From NCBI GenBank assembly GCA_016213945.1, contig JACQZF010000006.1, forward strand, positions 124,001-188,000: a stretch of 64,000 bases of DNA, written 5' to 3'. Every line of letters starts with the position of its first letter. Position 1 is the stretch's first letter. Positions 6,009-52,646 of the stretch are shown here, one piece after another. The DNA comes from Nitrospirota bacterium. Lineage in GTDB: Bacteria > Nitrospirota > Thermodesulfovibrionia > UBA6902. Both the position numbers and the translations under genes were made by a program. The notes below the pieces were generated by a model. The model was given only the letters and a program-made list of their open reading frames with translations, made no database searches and was not told where the DNA came from.

Positions 6009-7598
6009 CTACTTTTTTCGTCGCTTCCAGATCAGCGCTGATCCGCATATTGTCAAAACGCTTGCTGTCAAAAACGGATATTTGATTGAATAAACAACCG
6101 GTGTGAGCATTACTCTCGTAACAGCCTTTAATGATTTATGCTGTGAAATATAATCCGCAACAGGCGGGGAATACCTGTAATAGAGATCTATAACAAAGGT
6201 CTTTCCCAGCGGATTTGTCAAAAGATGTTTGTCCCTGAATTCCCTCAGCAGCATCACTTCATCAGCAAGATAACTGCCATAGGCAGCCGTGGCGATAAAA
6301 CAATCACCGGGACCTTCACTACTTCCGTCTTTGCCGCCTGCACTTTCTCCGGTGCCCGCAGTTTCCCCAGCATCCACGGGACTTTCATTGTCAATAACCT
6401 CTACGCAGCCCAAATCATATACATCTGTCAGGCCGTCACAATTATTGTCCATTGCATCACTGCATGTTGCATCGCCAAACGGCCCTTCTTTTGCTGCCGG
6501 GCTGATTAATGGATCATTGTCATTACAATCCGCGGTAAAGCCATTAACGCAATTATGCCCTCCCGGATTGCCATATCCGTCGCTGTCTTTATCATTACAT
6601 GGCAGCTCAAGTTTCCAGACTGCGTTAGTTCGATTAATCTCACTGCCCTGTGATTTACCGCCGATTACATAAAAAGTATTACTTGAAAACACGGCAAGAT
6701 GAGCGAAGGTAGGGTACGGTAAAGGGATTTCAGTACTGAATGTGTTAGTTGCCGTATCATATATCTGGAAATCACCGGTTGGTACAATATCCGGCCCGGT
6801 CAGGCCGGTCCACTTCGCAGCAGTCCAGCCCCCAATGAGATAAATTTTACCATCGAGGACCGGCGCAGCGCTGCTGTATGAAAATCCCCGCGGTGAAGAT
6901 AGCGCTCCCAGGCCTGAAGTGGTCCATATGTCTGACTCAAAATCGTAGGCAATGACATCAACCACTGCATTATTCCCGTTTCGGTCAATGCCTCCAATCA
7001 GGTATGCTTTTGGTCCCGCAACTGCAACAGCCATATTGTTTATCACCATCGGCATATGAGTAACAAGACGCCATGTGTCCGTGGAAGGATTGTATGCCTC
7101 TACCACATCAGAATAAGTGTCAGGATCAGTATTGCTTTTCCCGCCGAAGAGATAGATTTCTCCTTTGTGGACTACTGCAGGGACTGAGGACACGGCAGAA
7201 GGTTTTACCGCTTTAGAGGTCCAGGCATCGGCTGCAGGATCGTACTCTTGAACAAAGTTAAGAATTACGGAAGGGCTTCCGCTTAGCGCGCCAAAGACAT
7301 ACAATTTATCATTTACCACCGCGCCGGACAATTCTTCAGCGGCAGTTTGATTGCTCTTTTTGGAACTCCACTTATCTGTTTCAGGATTATACATTTCCGT
7401 AGATTTAAGATTAACGGTCCCTCGCCCTCCAAATACATAAATCTTCCCGCTAATAATGCCGCCAGTGAATTGATAGCGTGCGACATTTAAAGTTGCCGCC
7501 TCCTCCCATTCACCGTAATATGAATAAGCGGTTGCGGGCGCAAAATACGCAGCAAGAATAAATACTGCCAGCGCAAATACAACAATGCTTTTTGACAT
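6009..7598 (-). CDS. kelch-repeat surface protein with MopE-like and CFI-box C-terminal domains
   Basis: 529 residues. A signal peptide (1-24, ending ATAYS) is followed by about six kelch blades (30-335; repeated xxYVFGGxxx and YNPETDxW motifs), predicted to form a beta-propeller. Residues 336-400 carry MopE-like metal-binding motifs ([25 protein letters not shown]). A low-complexity Gly/Ser linker leads to [12 protein letters not shown] at about 433. This begins a CFI-box C-terminal region with [10 protein letters not shown] and YYRYSP, then a hydrophobic helix and the basic end KRRKK. The architecture suggests an exported protein held at the envelope, with the tail resembling sorting signals. 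The ligand is unknown. A GGGGGGAC Shine-Dalgarno sequence precedes the ATG. It is divergent from the waaF-like gene. Confidence 0.85.
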
Positions 7599-24895: not shown

Positions 24896-25065
24896 CAAAC
24901 AATATGAGACACAAAAAATATAACTATCAGATTTTTAAGCTAATAATGATTTTGCACGTTAATTGCTCTAAATATTCAAAATCTTCTGTACGCATGCTTT
25001 AAGTTTCAACATAATAATATTGAAAAGAGAAGTTACGCGCTTCAATTAAAGGAGAAGGGTTTTTT

Positions 25066-28000
25066 ATGAAAAAGTATCGTTTGTTTATTATTCTTATTGT
25101 TTCGGTTTTTTTATTAGGCAGTGCTGCCGGGACGGTTTATGCAGTATGTACTGATTTAGACGGAGACGGTTACGGCCGTCCGGGAGACGCCTCGTGCCCA
25201 AAGGGCAATAAGACCGATTGTAATGACAATGACAACAAGGTTTACCCCGGCGCGCCATTGCTCTGCGACGGCAAGGACAACAACTGCGACGGCAGGAAGG
25301 ACTTTACAACTGACGAGGACAAGGACCGGGACGGTGTATTATGGTGTGCAAATGACTGTGATGATAATAACGCAGCGCGCTTCCCCGGCAACCCCGAGAT
25401 CTGCGACGGTATTGACAATGACTGTAATAACATAGTGCCGGGAAATGAAGCGGACAAGGACAAAGATGGCTACCGGGTTTGCAGTACGCCGTCCGACTGC
25501 AATGACAATGACGCGGCAATAAATCCCGGCAAGCCTGAGATATGCAGTGACAACAAGGACAACAACTGTAACGGGCAGATAGACGAGGCAGGGTGTATCT
25601 GTCCTGACGCGGACGCGGACGGCTTTACGGCGTCATTCTGCGGAGGGCAGGACTGTGACGACAACAACGGGGCGGTAAACCCCAATGCAGTGGAAGTATG
25701 CACGGACGGCATAGACAACAACTGTAACGGAGTGAAGGACCTATCAGACCCGACAGCGGTCAACTGTCCTGTGTGCATAGACAATGACAGCGACGGATAC
25801 GCAATAGATGGCGGACTCTGCGGCCCTGTGGACTGTGATGATGCTGATGCTAATGTATACCCCGGAGCAGCGAAGATATGCGACGGCAAAGACAGCGACT
25901 GCGACGGCAGGCAGGATTTCAGCACAGACGTGGACGCTGACAATGACGGATTCCCGGTATGCGTATTATCTGGATACACTGCGGGAGACTGCAATGACAG
26001 TAATCCGAACGTAAACCCCGGCAAAAGGGAAGGGCATTTTGGAAACCCTACCTGCAGCGACGGTATGGACAATGACTGTGACAACCAGGTTGATGCAGGA
26101 GACGGCGGATGTGCTGCTCCGACCTGCGGCACCAAAGCGAACCCCAATGACGGGCCACACTTCTTTGCCCTCCTGAACTCTGACGGCACGCTTCATCCTG
26201 ACAATTCGCAATTACTTTGCGGCAAGTGTCATGACCAAAATGATTTCCTGAACAATGTCAGGTACCAGTGTCAGCGCTGCCATGCTGACCCTAACGACAC
26301 ATCAGACCCTCTGAACGGGACATTTAAGGCACAGTACCCGCTCGCCCCGCCATATGGATTCGGCTCAGCGCCTAATGTAAAGATGCACTCATCCGCTGTA
26401 GTAGGAGCAAAATACGGCAACTGGGACACAAGCTGTACAACCTGCCACAACCCTCACCAGCAGGAGCAGAATCTCGCATACAAAACTACCTACGGTAAAT
26501 ATATCAAAGAATATATCTGTCTCGATAATCCTGTTACCGGCCTGAACATACAGGAGTTCGTGAATTTCACCGCACCTACAGGGACCGGCTCATTTGCAGA
26601 CGGAGTGCCTTACAATGAGAACATTTGCAATATATGTCATACACAGACCAATCATCACAGAAGGGATGGGAACGCGCCGGCACAGTTACATAATGATGGA
26701 ACAAACTGCACGACGTGTCATGCGCATGCAGATGGTTTTAAGCATGGAGGGTCAGGAGGGGGCGCAAACTGCGCATCCTGTCACGGCCATGATGCCGGAT
26801 ATGAGTATGCCCCGGGGCAGTACGGTCAGGGCAGAGGAACGTTCAAGAGCCATTCCACGCATACGGAAAATGACGGCGATGATCAAAAAGGACCTTTTGT
26901 AAATTGCGATTCGTGTCATGACACGAATAATTTCCCATATTTCAAATCAGGCAATGATGCTAACGGAGACGGGAAGTATAGTTTGCCTGAGACGAATGTC
27001 TGCAATACCTGTCATAGCCCGGGAGGCAGTTATGACGGCGTTAATGACCTTATTGCCGGAGCAAAGAATAACTGGAAGAACGGGATATACGAGGAACGGT
27101 CATTGAAGGCTGGCAAGGAGAAGTGGTGTGCCGGCTGCCATGATAATGTCCCGGGCAACAGCAGAAGCGATGGAACAGGAGCAGACGCTCCGTCCGTGGC
27201 AGGCGATAACAGCACATATGGGTTTTATGCAACAGGACATGGAAAAGGGGGACAGGTAGAGTGTATAAATTGCCACGACGCATCGCGCGCTCACCTCGAC
27301 CACAAGAGTGTTCCCTTATCAAATGTACTCTTTAGTTACGAGACGAATCCGACTGGTTACCGTTTTTATCAGGGGAAAGGAATGGAGCTTCCGTACAACA
27401 GTGAGATGATGGACAGCGACTTCACGCTTTGCTTAAGCTGTCATAACAAGAGTTCGCTGTCTGACATCACCACGCAGGGGCCGTACCTGGAGACCAACTT
27501 CAGGATGGATAATAACGTATACGGATCGAATTTCTACAACCTCCATTATCAGCATGTATATGCCTATCCGCGCGTGACATGCGTCGAATGTCATGAACCT
27601 CATGGCACGGTCAGGGCGAGGTTGGCCTCTGATTTTATCTCCGGATACAGGCCTCTGACTTATGACGCGGTCTCGAACAAATATTTTGAATTGACAGATC
27701 TTTCAATGGTAGATAATCCTGATTACAACAAAGGCGGGGCGTTGACCTCACAGCTTTCCTGTGCAGCCTGTCATAACCCTGCAAACCTGAGCAATGGGGT
27801 GGGGCCTGTTGATGGTATGTTCGACGGCTGGTATCTGAGGCAGTATAAGCCCAAGACTTTCGCTGTTAATGAGGATTTCGACGGTGACAGTATTGCCAAT
27901 AACATTGATAACTGTTCCGGAACAGGGAACCCGTCGCAATCTGATGCAGACCTGGACGGTGTTGGTGATTCGTGCGACAATTGTCCGGGCAACAGTAACT

Positions 28001-29226
28001 TCCGGCAGGAGGACAAGGACAAGGACGGCATTGGTGATGCCTGTGACAGTTCCTGCGACGCGGCAGTAGTTGCATGGGCAGGCCAGATGGGAGGGTATGA
28101 CGGCCCGTATGCCGGGAATGAAGGAGCCTACGCAGCAGCAGTAGATATTGATGGCAATGTATATGTAACAGGGTATACTTTTTCCGACCTTTTCGGCCCG
28201 CATATTGGATATGATGCTGACTTTTTTATTGCCAAGTATAACTCCAGCGGCACACTACTGTGGGGAAAACATTTCGGCTCCGTTAACCGCGATTATGCTC
28301 AAAGCATAGTAGCAGATAACAATGGCTATGTATATATTGCCGGATGGACAAACGGTAATCTCTTTGGGACGAATGGCAGCGGGCCTGGCACCTTATGGGG
28401 CGACGATTATTTTGTCGCAAAATACGACACTAACGGCAACCTGGTCTGGGGCCGCCAGTACAGCAGTAATGGCAACCCGGACAGTCTCGACCGGGCCTTT
28501 GCTGTCGCGGTTGACGCGGCAGGCAATGTCTATGCGACTGGAAGCACCTCGCTTGTGAAATACGACAGCAACGGCAATCTGCTCAGAGCAATTACGGCAG
28601 GGAGTTATCAGGGAGGGATTGGTTTGGCTGTTGATAATGCAAACGGGTTTATCTATATGACCGGGGGGTATACTTATGATCTTAAACTAACCAAGTACGA
28701 TCTGGATTTGAATCAGGTCTGGACCAGAAGCACTGGCACATCATCTGATGAAATATCCGGTGGCGTGGCGCTGGACAGCTCCGGGAATATCTATATGACC
28801 GGCTATACAGCAGGAAGCCTTGTCGGAGCCAGCAACGGCTTCAATGACATCGTCATCGTCAAATACAATCCTGCCGGCACTAATCTGTGGACAAGACAGG
28901 TAGGGACTGCCGCCGATGACAAAGGCGTCGGCATAGCAGTCAATGCAGCAGGCGTTTATGTCACGGCAAACACTGCCGGGTCATTCGTCCCCTACCAAAA
29001 CTACAGCGGAGCAGATCCCGTACTGTTTAAGTATGACCTTAACGGCAACAGACTTTGGCATACTCAATGGAACTCATTCGGGGCCGCTTATGTATATGGA
29101 CTTGCCCTTGACAGTTCAGGGAATTATTATCTGCCCGGGGAGGCTGGTGGAGATGTAACCGGTACGGGTCTGAACACAGGCGGAAGCGCAGACGCTTATG
29201 TGTTGAAGACCCAGCAGTGTAATTAA
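25066..29226 (+). CDS. secreted MopE-repeat / 13-haem cytochrome c / beta-propeller protein
   Basis: 1386 residues. A signal peptide (1-27, ending TVYA) leads into about seven MopE-like metal-binding repeats (30-350; pattern D-C-N/D-D-N-D...P-G...E-I-C-D-G-x-D-N-N-C-D/N-G). Residues about 380-910 contain 13 CxxCH haem sites (for example CGKCH, CQRCH, CTTCH, CNICH, CASCH, CVECH, CAACH). Two thrombospondin type 3-like Asp-rich repeats follow (about 935-985; DADLDGVGDSCD, DKDKDGIGDACD). The rest is an SBBP-like beta-propeller (VDIDGNVYVTGYT, KYDTNGNLVWGRQY and similar). It should be an extracellular or outer-membrane-associated electron carrier, possibly Ca2+-stabilised. No membrane anchor or C-terminal sorting tail is visible. 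Shine-Dalgarno AAAGGAG is present upstream. Confidence 0.9.
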   Translation: MKKYRLFIILIVSVFLLGSAAGTVYAVCTDLDGDGYGRPGDASCPKGNKTDCNDNDNKVYPGAPLLCDGKDNNCDGRKDFTTDEDKDRDGVLWCANDCDDNNAARFPGNPEICDGIDNDCNNIVPGNEADKDKDGYRVCSTPSDCNDNDAAINPGKPEICSDNKDNNCNGQIDEAGCICPDADADGFTASFCGGQDCDDNNGAVNPNAVEVCTDGIDNNCNGVKDLSDPTAVNCPVCIDNDSDGYAIDGGLCGPVDCDDADANVYPGAAKICDGKDSDCDGRQDFSTDVDADNDGFPVCVLSGYTAGDCNDSNPNVNPGKREGHFGNPTCSDGMDNDCDNQVDAGDGGCAAPTCGTKANPNDGPHFFALLNSDGTLHPDNSQLLCGKCHDQNDFLNNVRYQCQRCHADPNDTSDPLNGTFKAQYPLAPPYGFGSAPNVKMHSSAVVGAKYGNWDTSCTTCHNPHQQEQNLAYKTTYGKYIKEYICLDNPVTGLNIQEFVNFTAPTGTGSFADGVPYNENICNICHTQTNHHRRDGNAPAQLHNDGTNCTTCHAHADGFKHGGSGGGANCASCHGHDAGYEYAPGQYGQGRGTFKSHSTHTENDGDDQKGPFVNCDSCHDTNNFPYFKSGNDANGDGKYSLPETNVCNTCHSPGGSYDGVNDLIAGAKNNWKNGIYEERSLKAGKEKWCAGCHDNVPGNSRSDGTGADAPSVAGDNSTYGFYATGHGKGGQVECINCHDASRAHLDHKSVPLSNVLFSYETNPTGYRFYQGKGMELPYNSEMMDSDFTLCLSCHNKSSLSDITTQGPYLETNFRMDNNVYGSNFYNLHYQHVYAYPRVTCVECHEPHGTVRARLASDFISGYRPLTYDAVSNKYFELTDLSMVDNPDYNKGGALTSQLSCAACHNPANLSNGVGPVDGMFDGWYLRQYKPKTFAVNEDFDGDSIANNIDNCSGTGNPSQSDADLDGVGDSCDNCPGNSNFRQEDKDKDGIGDACDSSCDAAVVAWAGQMGGYDGPYAGNEGAYAAAVDIDGNVYVTGYTFSDLFGPHIGYDADFFIAKYNSSGTLLWGKHFGSVNRDYAQSIVADNNGYVYIAGWTNGNLFGTNGSGPGTLWGDDYFVAKYDTNGNLVWGRQYSSNGNPDSLDRAFAVAVDAAGNVYATGSTSLVKYDSNGNLLRAITAGSYQGGIGLAVDNANGFIYMTGGYTYDLKLTKYDLDLNQVWTRSTGTSSDEISGGVALDSSGNIYMTGYTAGSLVGASNGFNDIVIVKYNPAGTNLWTRQVGTAADDKGVGIAVNAAGVYVTANTAGSFVPYQNYSGADPVLFKYDLNGNRLWHTQWNSFGAAYVYGLALDSSGNYYLPGEAGGDVTGTGLNTGGSADAYVLKTQQCN

Positions 29227-29234
29227 ATGGACAG

Positions 29235-29275
29235 CGCTCGCTGACCCCGTGGCAAGGTCACTGGGTCAGCGAGCG
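29235..29275. terminator. hairpin after the cytochrome gene
   Basis: CGCTCGCTGACCC (29235-29247) pairs perfectly with GGGTCAGCGAGCG (29263-29275), a 13-bp GC-rich stem with a 15-nt loop, beginning 9 nt after the stop codon. There is no T tract, so it may be a stabilising 3' hairpin or a weak terminator. Confidence 0.5.
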
Positions 29276-47962: not shown

Positions 47963-50900
47963 CTATCGTTTTCTTCTCCGTCGTTTTGGTCTTGGAGGTG
48001 GTGTCTGGTTTATTCGACGGTCTATTTCAAGAAGTGTTTGTCTTGCATTCCAAACATCTAATTCTAAGAGGCGTTCAAATAAGTCTAAGCCTTTTTCTCT
48101 GTAACCATCCAGCCGTTGTAAAGTTAAAGCTATATTTATCAGATTTTCCGTACAGATTGTAAAACGGTGACTGATGTTTGATAGTTCCTTTCCAAGCTGA
48201 GTTACAAACGCATTACATACACGATAGATACGGTCAGGATCAGTTGTTAATAAATCTTCAAGATGTTCAATTAAATAGCATGATCTTTCATTAGTTAAGA
48301 TTTTTGGATACTCACAAACTTTATCCAGTATTTTCCACGTATATTCATCAGGGAAGAATGACTTTGCTGAGGCAAACACCTTCGATGTTGCTTTCTGGAC
48401 TGCTTCATTAGAATCAGAAATAAGCTCTAATAATATTTCCGTCGCCATGATTCTGTACTGTGGTTCTGACCACAATTCTGAAGCTGAGAATGCAAGCCCT
48501 ATACGCATATTTTTCATTTTTTGAAATTCGGCAGATCGTCCTTTTTGAATTGAGATTACTTCTCTCTTCACCCAATCTATTTCGGAAAACCACGCATGGC
48601 GTAGCAATAAAATCTCAGCAAAAGCTTGTGCTCCCTGCTTCCAGTCACTATCGCGTAAACTGAATAGCCAATTTGAGACTAACGAATCATCTACCCATGA
48701 TTGAACGCGGGCAATTAAAGTGACGCCGTCATCGCTTTTCATTACATCGGGGAATTTAGAGAACAAAGAATCAAGGAATTTTTCAGATCGAATTTTATCA
48801 CCGAGATTTAAATTTGGTAAATAATGAGTTAATGTTTTCCACACTTCAGGATTTTCTTTACGCTGCACATGTTTTTCCAGAAGTGACAACCAGCCATCAA
48901 TGTCCGGGGAGTCTTTCCATAAATAAGCTTTCGTAAGTGTATCGAGGATGGGGTAGTTCCCATGTGGAACCACAATCATTCTATGTGATTGCCAAAGTAC
49001 ACTGGCAACATCATTGGCCTTTTTATTTTCTTTTTCATTCGTATCTTCTTGTTTTTCTACGGTGACTGATTTTAACCAACTTTCAAATAACTGAAAGAGG
49101 TCTACTGGCAATTCGTGATCCGAATCTAACCTTTCTCCAACTGCTCTTGCAGCATAATGACGGAAGTCCTCGCCTTCAAAACCAGCGTTATTAAGTTTTT
49201 GAATCAATTCAAACAACGTTTGAAATGGTAATTCTGATTTACTTAATCCTTCTAAAGCATGCCCTACTGTAATTTCGTTTCTTTTTGGTTGCATGCGAAA
49301 TATTAACCCAACTACTCTCTCCGGCTGTTCTTTTGCTAATTCGCCCAAAACCCTTGAAGCTTGAATAGTGCCGCCTTTCTCTCTAAATCTTGGATGATCC
49401 CAACCAGTGGCGTCTGTTAATTCATTAAACAACTTCAACAGTTCTTCATCCTGAGCCTTTGCCATTTGTTGAGCGGACATTTGGCTATCAACTGAATGCA
49501 TACCGCTAAAACATACATCTTTATCACTGAGATGAGGAAATGCACGTTTTTCTTCTTCTAATAATCGCTTTGTTCTTTTACTCATGTATTCAGAGGGAAA
49601 AGCTCTTAATAGTCTAAGCCTATGCTCGCGGTTATACCTAATTCGGTCAAGACGTATATTAGGAGATTCTTCATGCCAAGAGTCCTTGTACATATTGAAT
49701 TGAGAGATTGCAATTTCGAGTTCCTGAGTTCTTTTCTTATCAAGTTTGGGTACCACAAGTTTAATAAGATCAATCGTGTCTGAATGACAGTCCTGATAAC
49801 TTCCGAGGATTAAGCGTCTTTCATCTTCCATTAGGAATTCATAAACTTTTGCTGGATAAGAGGCTACAATTTTTCTCAAACCTCTTGCCAGCAGCCGCTG
49901 CACAACCAAGAAATCTTCAACTTTGAGTTTTTCGTAAAAAGCCCAAAAATTATCTGCATCTTTTTCTGCAAGATTTTTTACAGCGCTTTCAACAGAATAT
50001 ACTATTGGATATTCTCTAACACTATCTAAATCGCCTTCTAAATTTGTTGCTAAACAATGGTCGTCGCGATAGCCGATGCGAATATGATGTGGTTCATAAG
50101 CGATGAAGCTGAGAACTTTTGTAAACCATAGCCAAACAGATTCAAGAAAAGCTTTTGGGGCAGCTTCAGCAACTGCAGGTAAATTATATAACCCCTCGCG
50201 TGATTCTAAAAGTTGTTTGTAGGGCTGTAGGTTATCATGTTTTATTTGATAGAGAATTTTTTGTTCATCAGTTTCATCTACTGGTAAATGTGGCAGTTCT
50301 TTTGATGCCTCCTCCTTAGCTTTCTCAAGGCTATGATCAAAATAAGCTCTCACTAATTGAGGGGCAAGTTCAGGCGCGTTTGCAGAAATAAGTGTTGAAA
50401 GAGAATCGATATAATAATCATCCACATCAGTTCGGCCTATCATCCGACAAGCCATGCTCAGTGCTTTTTCATCCCAATCTTTCATGTCATCCAATACCCT
50501 CAGACTTAGATAATCTTTTTCCGGATTAATTAGCCAGTATCTTTCAATCATCTCCAATATTTTCTCTCTGTCGTAATTCAATGCGCTTTTTAAAATAAAA
50601 AGAACATCGATAGCCTGATTAGGTGGGAGTGACATAAACATCGGGATATGCGTGTCCATAAGACGATGAAACCATCCATGGCTTTCAGTCATGCAAGACA
50701 ATATTCTCCGTCTGTATTGAGGTTGTATAAGATATGGCAGAAGCCAATTAGCTTCAAAATCTTGAGGATCAGGAATCTGCCCAAGGAACTCAATTAATAA
50801 TATTTTTAAATGAAATTTCAGATCGTCATGGTTCCAGAGTGCACCAAATTCTTTTCTATAGCTTGATTGATCTACGACACGCAGGTAATTTAAAGCATTC

Positions 50901-52453
50901 CAAAGTTGCGGACGAACAAATAAACCATTTTGTCTTTTTAAGACATAATTGGATAGAGACCCTTCTACCCTTACAAATGCACGTGAGCGAGCATATTCAA
51001 AAAGAGTCTGATGTCTAAACCCAACCCTTTGCCTGTCTGATTCAATCGTTAAAATTTCCTGGGCTTCAAGATATTTAATATGCGGTAAATAATCCTGATA
51101 CATGGCAGAAGGCAACCATAATTCCTCCCTCTCCCCCATTGTGGTAGCCATGCTATCAAGCAAATCTACATAGTCCTTTCCGGCTTTCAGAACTTTTTCT
51201 TCCCACAACTTCTCCAACATAGCGTAATAAGAATGGAATATTTCAGTTGTACTGCTCCCCTGACAGATATCAATAAATATTTTCAAGTATTGCGGGATAC
51301 GAAGTAATTCCAGAAAGTCTGCAGACCAACCCGCGGTTTGTATCCCTTTCTCTTGTATGAGTGCAGACACTCTGTCAATAGATGGGGATTCCAAAAGTAT
51401 ATTATCAGCTTCTATGTTTCTAAGGCGGGGATCGTGTTGATGTTCAAAAGAACGACATGATGCAACTATATGAACATTAGGTAATCCTGATAAATCATGT
51501 ATCAAATCAAGCAGAACGTTAAGACGCCCTGAATGCAGATCAACCATATCTGCAAGCGCATCAAGCTGATCAACAATGAGTACAACGGGTTCCAGCTTCG
51601 ATAAGCCCTCAATGCAATAACGGGAGGCAGCAGGCAAATGAAAAGTCTTCATTAATTGTTCAGATGTCCCGATATCGGCAGGTAAAAGATCTGCTTTAAT
51701 CGCCATCAATGCTATGTTATTAACTACAAATTCATGGGCAAGTCGCGACAGTAATGCAGACTTGCCACTTCCGGGCGGACCTAAAAGAAGTGTGATGCTA
51801 TTTAGTTCAGATCTTATCTTTTCTCTGATCTGATTTAATTCATCTCTCTCTAACCACCGTCCATCTGATAAAGTAGATGGCCAGTTTAAAAGAGAATCTG
51901 ATGCTTTGAATAATGCTTTTTTGATATTGTCAAAAGTGATGTTGATGGTAATTAGATCTGGTTTTTGAAGTGAACTGATGGCTAATTGATTGATCTCCTG
52001 AATAGATTTCGAAAAGTTTCCTAAAACCTGCTCATCTCCGCCAATTGCGGCAAGCAGCAGATGTAAAGTTTCCGAATTGTCTAAGCCGTCTCGAAAATCT
52101 ACCCATGTATTTCTTCTAAGAAAGCGCGACAAACTGCTCGAGCTTGCTCCAGGTAAGAGAACAGGTATTACAGGGAAATTGTCTTCATTAATTTGACGGT
52201 TTAAAGCAATATCAATTTCAGCCCTTTGATATCTACCTATTCCATGAGAGCCTATAAAAACAGCACAGCATTTAGAGCTGTTAAAAGCTGATTCAATTTT
52301 TTCAAGTGATGAACGCCCTGGCAATAGATGCCATTTATCTAAAAATGAGTTTATCCCTTTGTCCTGCAAAAGACGTTCAATAGTTTTTACTATTGGTTTG
52401 TCCTTATCGTTGTGGCATAAAAATACGTCAAAAAGGAGCGTCATTTTTCTCAT
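47963..52453 (-). CDS. TIR-STAND NTPase with large helical-repeat sensor region (candidate antiphage protein)
   Basis: About 1496 residues. An N-terminal TIR domain (about 7-135) has FDVFLCHNDKDKPIVKTI, FLDKWHLLPGRSSLEKIES (holding candidate catalytic Glu) and CCAVFIGSHGIG. A STAND/NACHT-like ATPase follows (about 195-470) with GPPGSGKSALL (226-236), VVLIVDQLDAL (291-301) and IVASCRSFE. The remaining roughly 1000 residues are alpha-helical repeats, ending in a basic tail (RPKRRRRK). TIR domains cleave NAD+ and STAND modules oligomerise when triggered, so this could be a one-protein defence sensor like Avs or TIR-STAND systems. The start is ATG 52453 (in-frame alternatives: a TTG at 52456 and an ATG at 52444). 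It is AT-rich and convergent with the radical SAM gene. Confidence 0.9.
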   Translation of the reverse strand: MRKMTLLFDVFLCHNDKDKPIVKTIERLLQDKGINSFLDKWHLLPGRSSLEKIESAFNSSKCCAVFIGSHGIGRYQRAEIDIALNRQINEDNFPVIPVLLPGASSSSLSRFLRRNTWVDFRDGLDNSETLHLLLAAIGGDEQVLGNFSKSIQEINQLAISSLQKPDLITINITFDNIKKALFKASDSLLNWPSTLSDGRWLERDELNQIREKIRSELNSITLLLGPPGSGKSALLSRLAHEFVVNNIALMAIKADLLPADIGTSEQLMKTFHLPAASRYCIEGLSKLEPVVLIVDQLDALADMVDLHSGRLNVLLDLIHDLSGLPNVHIVASCRSFEHQHDPRLRNIEADNILLESPSIDRVSALIQEKGIQTAGWSADFLELLRIPQYLKIFIDICQGSSTTEIFHSYYAMLEKLWEEKVLKAGKDYVDLLDSMATTMGEREELWLPSAMYQDYLPHIKYLEAQEILTIESDRQRVGFRHQTLFEYARSRAFVRVEGSLSNYVLKRQNGLFVRPQLWNALNYLRVVDQSSYRKEFGALWNHDDLKFHLKILLIEFLGQIPDPQDFEANWLLPYLIQPQYRRRILSCMTESHGWFHRLMDTHIPMFMSLPPNQAIDVLFILKSALNYDREKILEMIERYWLINPEKDYLSLRVLDDMKDWDEKALSMACRMIGRTDVDDYYIDSLSTLISANAPELAPQLVRAYFDHSLEKAKEEASKELPHLPVDETDEQKILYQIKHDNLQPYKQLLESREGLYNLPAVAEAAPKAFLESVWLWFTKVLSFIAYEPHHIRIGYRDDHCLATNLEGDLDSVREYPIVYSVESAVKNLAEKDADNFWAFYEKLKVEDFLVVQRLLARGLRKIVASYPAKVYEFLMEDERRLILGSYQDCHSDTIDLIKLVVPKLDKKRTQELEIAISQFNMYKDSWHEESPNIRLDRIRYNREHRLRLLRAFPSEYMSKRTKRLLEEEKRAFPHLSDKDVCFSGMHSVDSQMSAQQMAKAQDEELLKLFNELTDATGWDHPRFREKGGTIQASRVLGELAKEQPERVVGLIFRMQPKRNEITVGHALEGLSKSELPFQTLFELIQKLNNAGFEGEDFRHYAARAVGERLDSDHELPVDLFQLFESWLKSVTVEKQEDTNEKENKKANDVASVLWQSHRMIVVPHGNYPILDTLTKAYLWKDSPDIDGWLSLLEKHVQRKENPEVWKTLTHYLPNLNLGDKIRSEKFLDSLFSKFPDVMKSDDGVTLIARVQSWVDDSLVSNWLFSLRDSDWKQGAQAFAEILLLRHAWFSEIDWVKREVISIQKGRSAEFQKMKNMRIGLAFSASELWSEPQYRIMATEILLELISDSNEAVQKATSKVFASAKSFFPDEYTWKILDKVCEYPKILTNERSCYLIEHLEDLLTTDPDRIYRVCNAFVTQLGKELSNISHRFTICTENLINIALTLQRLDGYREKGLDLFERLLELDVWNARQTLLEIDRRINQTPPPRPKRRRRKR

Positions 52454-52646
52454 CAAAATTTATTAGATATTATGAAGAGCATTATTAATCCTTTTTTCAT
52501 TTCTAACCAAGCCCCAATTTTTATTCTGAATATCATAAGCAAGATAATGGGATGTTTTCAAGTTCAACAACCTAATACTCTAAGAAAAGTTCTCTTGAAT
52601 GGAGGTGCAACAAACTGCTCGTGTAGAAACTTTTGCTATAGCTTAT

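Follow-up and report, generated by a model that had tools for sequence, protein, structure and literature searches.

The giant cytochromes of anaerobic methanotrophic archaea (ANME), grouped as ANME multihaem cytochrome (ANME-MHC) types A, B and C, carry surface-layer (S-layer), peptidase-M6-like or pectin-lyase-type domains (PMC9012536; papers are cited here for the passages that concern such proteins). Surface cytochromes have been reported in Methylococcus capsulatus (PMC3423442, PMC4831470), and the cytochromes of Geobacter are described in terms of duplication and fast change, the word 'recombination' being absent from the passages cited (PMC12977616). Here we analyze a 64,000-nucleotide stretch (the window) of a Nitrospirota genome of the class Thermodesulfovibrionia and, within it, the gene at 25066-29226, which joins MopE motifs, a multihaem cytochrome and a beta-propeller. 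The product may be a secreted 13-haem c-type cytochrome for extracellular electron transfer, made of a shared N-module for docking and haem entry, a core that conducts electrons and a binding head that can be exchanged; we put the probability of this reading at about 0.5. The genome of the window, labelled G000, comprises 3.5 Mb in 101 contigs and is 98% complete. C-numbers denote its contigs, L-numbers retrieved loci and other G-numbers other genomes.

The protein consists, in this order, of a signal peptide, six MopE motifs, 13 CxxCH motifs, thrombospondin type 3 (TSP3) repeats and a seven-bladed SBBP propeller. The corresponding features are as follows (aa, amino acids).

25066..29226, + strand: the whole open reading frame (ORF), 1386 aa, ATG start, uninterrupted.
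25066..25143, + strand: Sec signal peptide, aa 1-26, with cleavage at VYA/VC, predicted from hydrophobicity and by-eye reading.
25147..26121, + strand: MopE-motif region, aa 28-352, six PF11617 stretches, with 65 Asp, 39 Asn, 30 Cys and 1 His.
26218..27774, + strand: 13 CxxCH haem-binding motifs, aa 385-903, the last starting at aa 899.
26563..27855, + strand: cytochrome core of 10 haems, aa 500-930; 25 of the 229 genomes of the class have this domain (core profile threshold E 1e-20).
27871..28059, + strand: thrombospondin type 3 repeats, aa 936-998, TSP_3 26.4 bits against a cut-off of 25, in two stretches.
28066..29223, + strand: seven-bladed SBBP beta-propeller, aa 1001-1386, SBBP 71.4 bits against a cut-off of 20.5.
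29218..29220, + strand: Cys1385, the last residue but one, present in all 8 aligned rows.

A first-pass annotation of the window, made from the sequence, had claimed that three kinds of module are joined in a single secreted protein, and the ORF, the Pfam scan (all four module types above curated cut-offs) and the CxxCH count bear this out. PF11617, the MopE motif, scored 179.7 bits against a cut-off of 27, and Cytochrome_C7 44.2 bits against 24.8, with matches to cytochromes c7/c3. In 2000 shuffles of the same composition, CxxCH occurred on average 0.07 times and at most twice, versus the 13 observed, so the 13-CxxCH cytochrome module was rightly recognized. Export without a membrane anchor had also been predicted correctly: the only hydrophobic stretch is N-terminal (best 19-residue mean 2.49 at aa 6; no more than 1.15 beyond aa 30), the mature start as read by eye has no lipobox, and neither an anchor nor a C-terminal sorting signal was recognized in the protein.

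All 13 haem motifs are plain CxxCH and are accompanied by ample conserved histidines. When the core was aligned alone (aa 500-930, 21 sequences), many columns were invariant; Pfam and NCBIfam gave generic matches only. Among the 8 aligned rows, window included, the motifs at aa 521, 614, 646, 688, 733, 789, 839 and 899 are intact in all 8, and so are the non-motif histidines 554, 596, 599, 725, 743, 746, 827, 830 and 846, which should be enough for bis-His ligation of most haems. The core motifs are retained wherever the sequence is present, except those at aa 548 (one row) and aa 569, the latter missing as a unit in three of the 8 rows. Genes of the ResB and CcsA type for cytochrome c maturation lie together on contigs C91, C49 and C35 of G000. 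Contig C49 holds two such gene pairs and also an open-ended ORF with 37 CxxCH (L061 1-4326).

The two Asp-rich TSP3 repeats, which match COMP (E 8.8e-22) and thrombospondin-2 (E 1.9e-16), had been taken for a hinge of all three modules; the repeats are there, but they sit between cytochrome and propeller only. The propeller itself was confirmed by the SBBP score and by structure prediction with AlphaFold2 (AF2), which gave a confident fold for aa ~1000-1386. Its nearest solved structure is the propeller of CylK (Z 49.6, root-mean-square deviation (rmsd) 2.0 Å, 364 residues aligned, 34% identity), followed by entries at Z about 35 that include seven-bladed designed proteins, such as v13WRAP-T (Z 35.4, rmsd 1.8, 278 aligned). 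It is possible that Cys1385 clasps the propeller through a disulfide with Cys997.

The same architecture was found elsewhere when the separate modules were blasted on the ORFs of retrieved loci, as the first-pass annotation had advised for homologs of identical domain order. L094 (G226) is a complete gene with the four modules of the window protein and 13 haems; L096 (G229) has the four modules and is cut by a contig edge inside the MopE region. Besides these two further four-module genes, five more have the cytochrome-TSP3-propeller part. In four of them the N-terminus is cut or lies in an N gap: L095 (G229), L064 (G022, with the N gap before the cytochrome), and L097 and L098 (G220), L098 starting with the end of the MopE region. 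The fifth and more distant one, L099 (G194, another family), has a haem-rich N-terminus instead. Because G226 holds a complete gene with the four modules in the same order, the window gene is not an assembly join, and an isolated oddity or chimera can be rejected. The architecture that had been called unusual is thus real, but it is not an isolated fusion, since the exact order recurs in L094 and L096. The ratio dN/dS was 0.12 for L097 vs L064 and 0.11 for L094 vs L095 (dS 2.2, near saturation), a sign of purifying selection on all three C-terminal modules as a unit. More widely, fusions of MopE motifs to multihaem cytochromes form a paralogous family with 8-38 haems, and G000 holds 95 PF11617 matches, the same search being positive in 0 of 14 control genomes. 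A MopE-cytochrome frame in G001 (L068 1854-9206, - strand) reaches 2451 aa and 38 CxxCH. No paper joining MopE motifs and multihaem cytochromes in one protein was found in the open-licence PMC literature, and the passages of PMC11475568 contain no mention of MopE, propeller or Nitrospir.

The two ends of the protein do not share one ancestry. Three paralogous loci of G000 have DNA homology to the window gene, and in each of them it ends at 26660-26669, just past the fourth haem motif (CHTQTNHHRRDG), which sets off two further features.

25147..26670, + strand: N-module (MopE motifs plus haems 1-4), aa 28-535, which paralogues share and have partly homogenised.
26037..26669, + strand: segment of 633 bp without a gap, 95.9% identical to the end of contig C78 (dS 0.09).

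At the protein level the N-module is nearest to the C78 paralogue (94.9% over 136 residues), then to that on C94 (76%), and has 64-66% identity to the propeller-type orthologues L094 and L096. Its tree, built without L109 (another cut of a G022 gene already represented), groups the sequences mostly by genus or family branch. A single group of the five testable propeller proteins, chosen post hoc after this tree had been seen, was rejected for the N-module (delta log-likelihood 225, approximately unbiased test p-AU 2.4e-6). In the core tree a single branch sets all 8 propeller proteins apart (support 93/88; 94% of bootstrap trees). N-module and core therefore differ in their histories, with exchange or conversion of the N-module between paralogues. 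Separately, L069 618-5647 (G039) carries two tandem MopE-cytochromes that are identical over the compared N-module segment and different elsewhere.

On the outer side, the relatives that share the core and lack the propeller end in other heads: LamG in 2, beta-helix in 4 and Kelch in 1, that is, in 7 of 9 stretches above cut-off. The scan covered 9 of the 12 non-propeller rows of the core tree (L104, L110 and L111 were left out), several stretches being cut to ~1300 aa. A tentative interpretation is that we are looking at recombining extracellular cytochromes, in which, in genomes of this class, a near-identical MopE-tetrahaem 'plug' is kept by gene conversion on different multihaem proteins, with the breakpoint at the fourth haem (CHTQTNHHRRDG). 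If so, different cores and heads (propeller, lectin, beta-helix) would attach to one surface conduit like tools on one socket. Several observations weigh against this and against the main reading. The genome groups of the N-module are imperfect, G000, G022, G001, G229 and DeMMO each needing two changes; homogenisation therefore appears partial, and to follow the genus or family branch more than the single genome. The C78 segment (L057 12147-12779) runs to a contig end, and an in-frame TGA stands in it at the position of AGG in the window, so this copy may be misassembled or a pseudogene. Furthermore, L071 has no named head and that of L107 falls below cut-off. No paper on gene conversion in multihaem cytochromes was found in the open-licence PMC literature.

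Extracellular electron transfer, which the first-pass annotation had raised, is plausible because a conserved barrel-cytochrome-NHL cluster lies beside a close paralogue of the window gene and cytochrome c maturation genes are present; the accompanying idea of a surface scaffold or of mineral contact drew no support from any result. The cluster on C78 reads, on one strand, MopE-cytochrome, DsbA-like protein, 4-haem protein, 5-haem protein, NHL protein, 5-haem protein with lipobox, 676-aa barrel, NHL protein and 11-haem protein; 12.8 kb were read, where the contig ends. This order was found again in 15 of the 16 loci read, in 14 genomes, some loci being cut by contig ends and the sixteenth being another stretch of G022. 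A MopE-cytochrome adjoins the cluster in G000, G001 and G039. The barrel had no sequence match in the PDB, and its structure model is an outer-membrane-type beta-barrel; against MtrB (6r2q_B), second among the matches listed and tied with other barrels, it gave Z 16.5 and rmsd 6.2 Å over 364 aligned residues. Among the 229 genomes, 23 have the barrel, 11 have MopE-cytochromes and 9 have both, so that the barrel occurs in 9/11 genomes with a MopE-cytochrome vs 14/218 others (Fisher p 1e-8). Within the family of the window (f1, counted by hand: 37 genomes, 17 with barrel and 20 without) the figures are 8/9 vs 9/28 (Fisher p 0.004); the genomes are related, so both Fisher tests overstate independence.

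That relatedness counts against the proposed electron-transfer role, and it is joined by other points. The barrel is absent from two of the 11 MopE-cytochrome genomes (G004 and G034), and G194, which has a cytochrome-propeller fusion, gave no barrel match. Since the window gene stands alone among unrelated genes and its G226 counterpart adjoins RtcB/archease, no operon links it directly to the barrel cluster. The cytochrome part of the AF2 model has a predicted local distance difference test (pLDDT) score below 50, so the haem geometry is unreadable; the matches listed in the structure search with this model were propellers, no cytochrome fold being readable. Finally, the protein could stay periplasmic.

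With these reservations we infer the location and function of the protein as follows. The ResB/CcsA system would load haem covalently, and Sec export would be followed by outer-membrane crossing; three secretins exist in G000. The MopE-tetrahaem N-module may dock at a cell-surface conduit and take up electrons there, which the 10-haem core would conduct outward. A presumably calcium-dependent TSP3 spacer would then present the propeller, and the propeller may bind an outside target, be it mineral, polysaccharide, matrix or a partner cell.

Other readings of the same anatomy have to be weighed. In one, which we regard as unlikely, the protein serves recognition or adhesion so that electrons go straight to partner cells or into the biofilm matrix and not to minerals: the propeller would attach to a polysaccharide or to the surface of a partner, and electrons would travel through the haems from cell to cell. 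The LamG (lectin-like), beta-helix and Kelch ends of the related cores are typical of carbohydrate or matrix contact, and syntrophic sulfate reducers have cytochrome clusters with separate beta-propeller proteins (PMC5539420, PMC8322314). The same anatomy, however, also fits mineral contact.

Somewhat less probable still is retention in the periplasm, where the protein would store or shuttle electrons without leaving the cell, its MopE and TSP3 regions serving only to stabilise it through calcium. TSP3 repeats, SBBP propellers, LamG and beta-helix are extracellular-type modules, and the first two in the protein and the latter two as heads of its relatives speak against retention. A Sec signal is all that could be recognized, with no signal for outer-membrane export, and the cytochromes of a syntroph operon have likewise been called periplasmic from the signal peptide alone (PMC5539420); MopE of Methylococcus, on the other hand, is secreted (PMC3423442).

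We think it improbable that the protein polymerises into an extracellular cytochrome filament (nanowire) decorated by the propeller. The family profile does match 9yuq_N, a 'putative multiheme cytochrome c' (E 3.6e-6; one entry with 16 chains, which could be a filament), for which no describing paper was found in the open-licence PMC literature. The match covers only ~125 profile positions, the window protein is large and multi-modular, and the cytochrome part of its model has the low pLDDT given above. As to nanowires of the OmcS/OmcE/OmcZ type, which are filaments whose haem chains have ligands bridging the subunits, the weak 9yuq_N match was the one link obtained.

A role in catalysis, as a multihaem oxidoreductase or as a propeller enzyme like CylK, would be more doubtful again. 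It is suggested by the closeness of the propeller to CylK and by a short stretch resembling octahaem nitrite reductase 8rv0_Y (E 0.008). The CylK match is limited to the propeller half (chain 249-654 by structure; significant sequence stretches from 226). We rejected a CylK-like enzyme on the ground that the N-terminal part of CylK has no counterpart here, other modules standing upstream of the propeller, and 13 plain CxxCH with conserved histidines are as found in electron carriers.

The nature of the metal bears on the last alternative. The first-pass annotation had described calcium- or copper-binding MopE-like motifs; the PF11617 motifs stood up, the copper did not. Two solved proteins were matched by this region with the same strength (E 0.016), namely the copper protein MopE* (2vov, weakly and over residues 11-46 only) and acyloxyacyl hydrolase, in a part that we take to be calcium-binding. 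The 325 aa of the region include a single His and a single Trp, and the Cu(I) site of MopE falls outside the matched residues 11-46 of 2vov, which makes a copper reading weak. In MopE the Cu(I) ligands are His132, His203 and a kynurenine made from Trp130 (PMC3423442). Because no counterpart of this His/His/kynurenine site was found in the MopE region of the window and acyloxyacyl hydrolase was matched equally well, calcium is the better guess. Copper uptake like that of the methanotroph proteins MopE/CorA, for which the PF11617 motifs and the short 2vov match could be quoted, was accordingly rejected as very improbable, its Cu(I) ligands having no counterpart here.

Two small features flank the gene.

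25049..25054, + strand: Shine-Dalgarno-like AAGGAG, 11 nt 5' of the ATG, read from the sequence.
29235..29275, + strand: hairpin with 17-nt arms and no T-run, directly 3' of the stop codon (RNA z-score -6.9), possibly a terminator.

An unassigned 209-aa ORF on the opposite strand and the gene of a mechanosensitive channel lie upstream, while a glycogen branching-type enzyme, recognized by eye, is encoded downstream together with histidine kinases. Cargo of a mobile element was considered and rejected, there being no match in 72,556 plasmids and 0 of 31 candidate stretches in viral contigs. Elsewhere in the window, 6009-7598 (- strand) encodes another surface-type protein, Kelch/mutarotase-like, which has a single MopE motif in addition to a CFI-box-CTERM domain. 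The 1497-aa ORF at 47966-52456 (- strand) is possibly a TIR defence protein: its N-terminal 100 aa align with the TIR-bearing portion of a family of anti-phage reverse transcriptases (E 1.5e-9), with scores far below the cut-off of that family.

The question addressed is the exchange of electrons between uncultured Nitrospirota and either solids or partner cells, and the outcome is a set of concrete candidate outer proteins together with a conserved candidate conduit cluster. Extracellular electron transfer through an exchangeable head leads to a testable rule: N-modules stay similar within a genus, and it is the outer part that varies. Should this hold, it would account for the use of many acceptors through a single conduit, and ready-made haem-protein parts (docking module, conducting core, binding heads) would become available for bioelectronics.

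It remains to set the protein beside known systems. With MopE, the secreted copper protein of Methylococcus capsulatus, it shares the PF11617-type motif and secretion; it differs in having a run of six motifs joined to a cytochrome, whereas MopE is described without a haem domain in the passages cited (PMC3423442, PMC4831470), and in lacking the Cu(I) site. Fold and sequence place its propeller in one subfamily with those of CylK and of the SBBP/LipL53 type, the propeller being all that is common with CylK, whose N-terminal part is absent here. The porin-cytochrome conduit MtrCAB is resembled by the C78 cluster, not by the window protein: the cluster has an outer-membrane-type barrel and multihaem proteins with PF22113 matches, while the window protein, unlike MtrC/OmcA, has no lipobox and no match to PF22113 (the MtrC domain) up to E 1. 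Multihaem cytochromes stand beside beta-propeller proteins in Desulfovibrio ferrophilus and in syntrophic sulfate reducers, and the authors tie them to extracellular electron transfer (PMC5539420, PMC8322314). In the clusters described there the propellers are separate, and the core cytochromes, of 16 and 26 haems, come with a peptidyl-prolyl isomerase (PPIase); the window propeller is fused. The C78 cluster differs from the syntroph operon of the Skennerton type in its 4-, 5-, 5- and 11-haem proteins and its DsbA-like protein, with no PPIase in the 12.8 kb read. The nearest published kind by design, likened by description and not by sequence, appears to be the ANME giant cytochromes. These are archaeal, two types being S-layer-built with a membrane helix, and no MopE, TSP3 or propeller is named in the passages cited; they are, like the window protein, very large multihaem cytochromes with extracellular non-haem domains that vary by type (PMC9012536).

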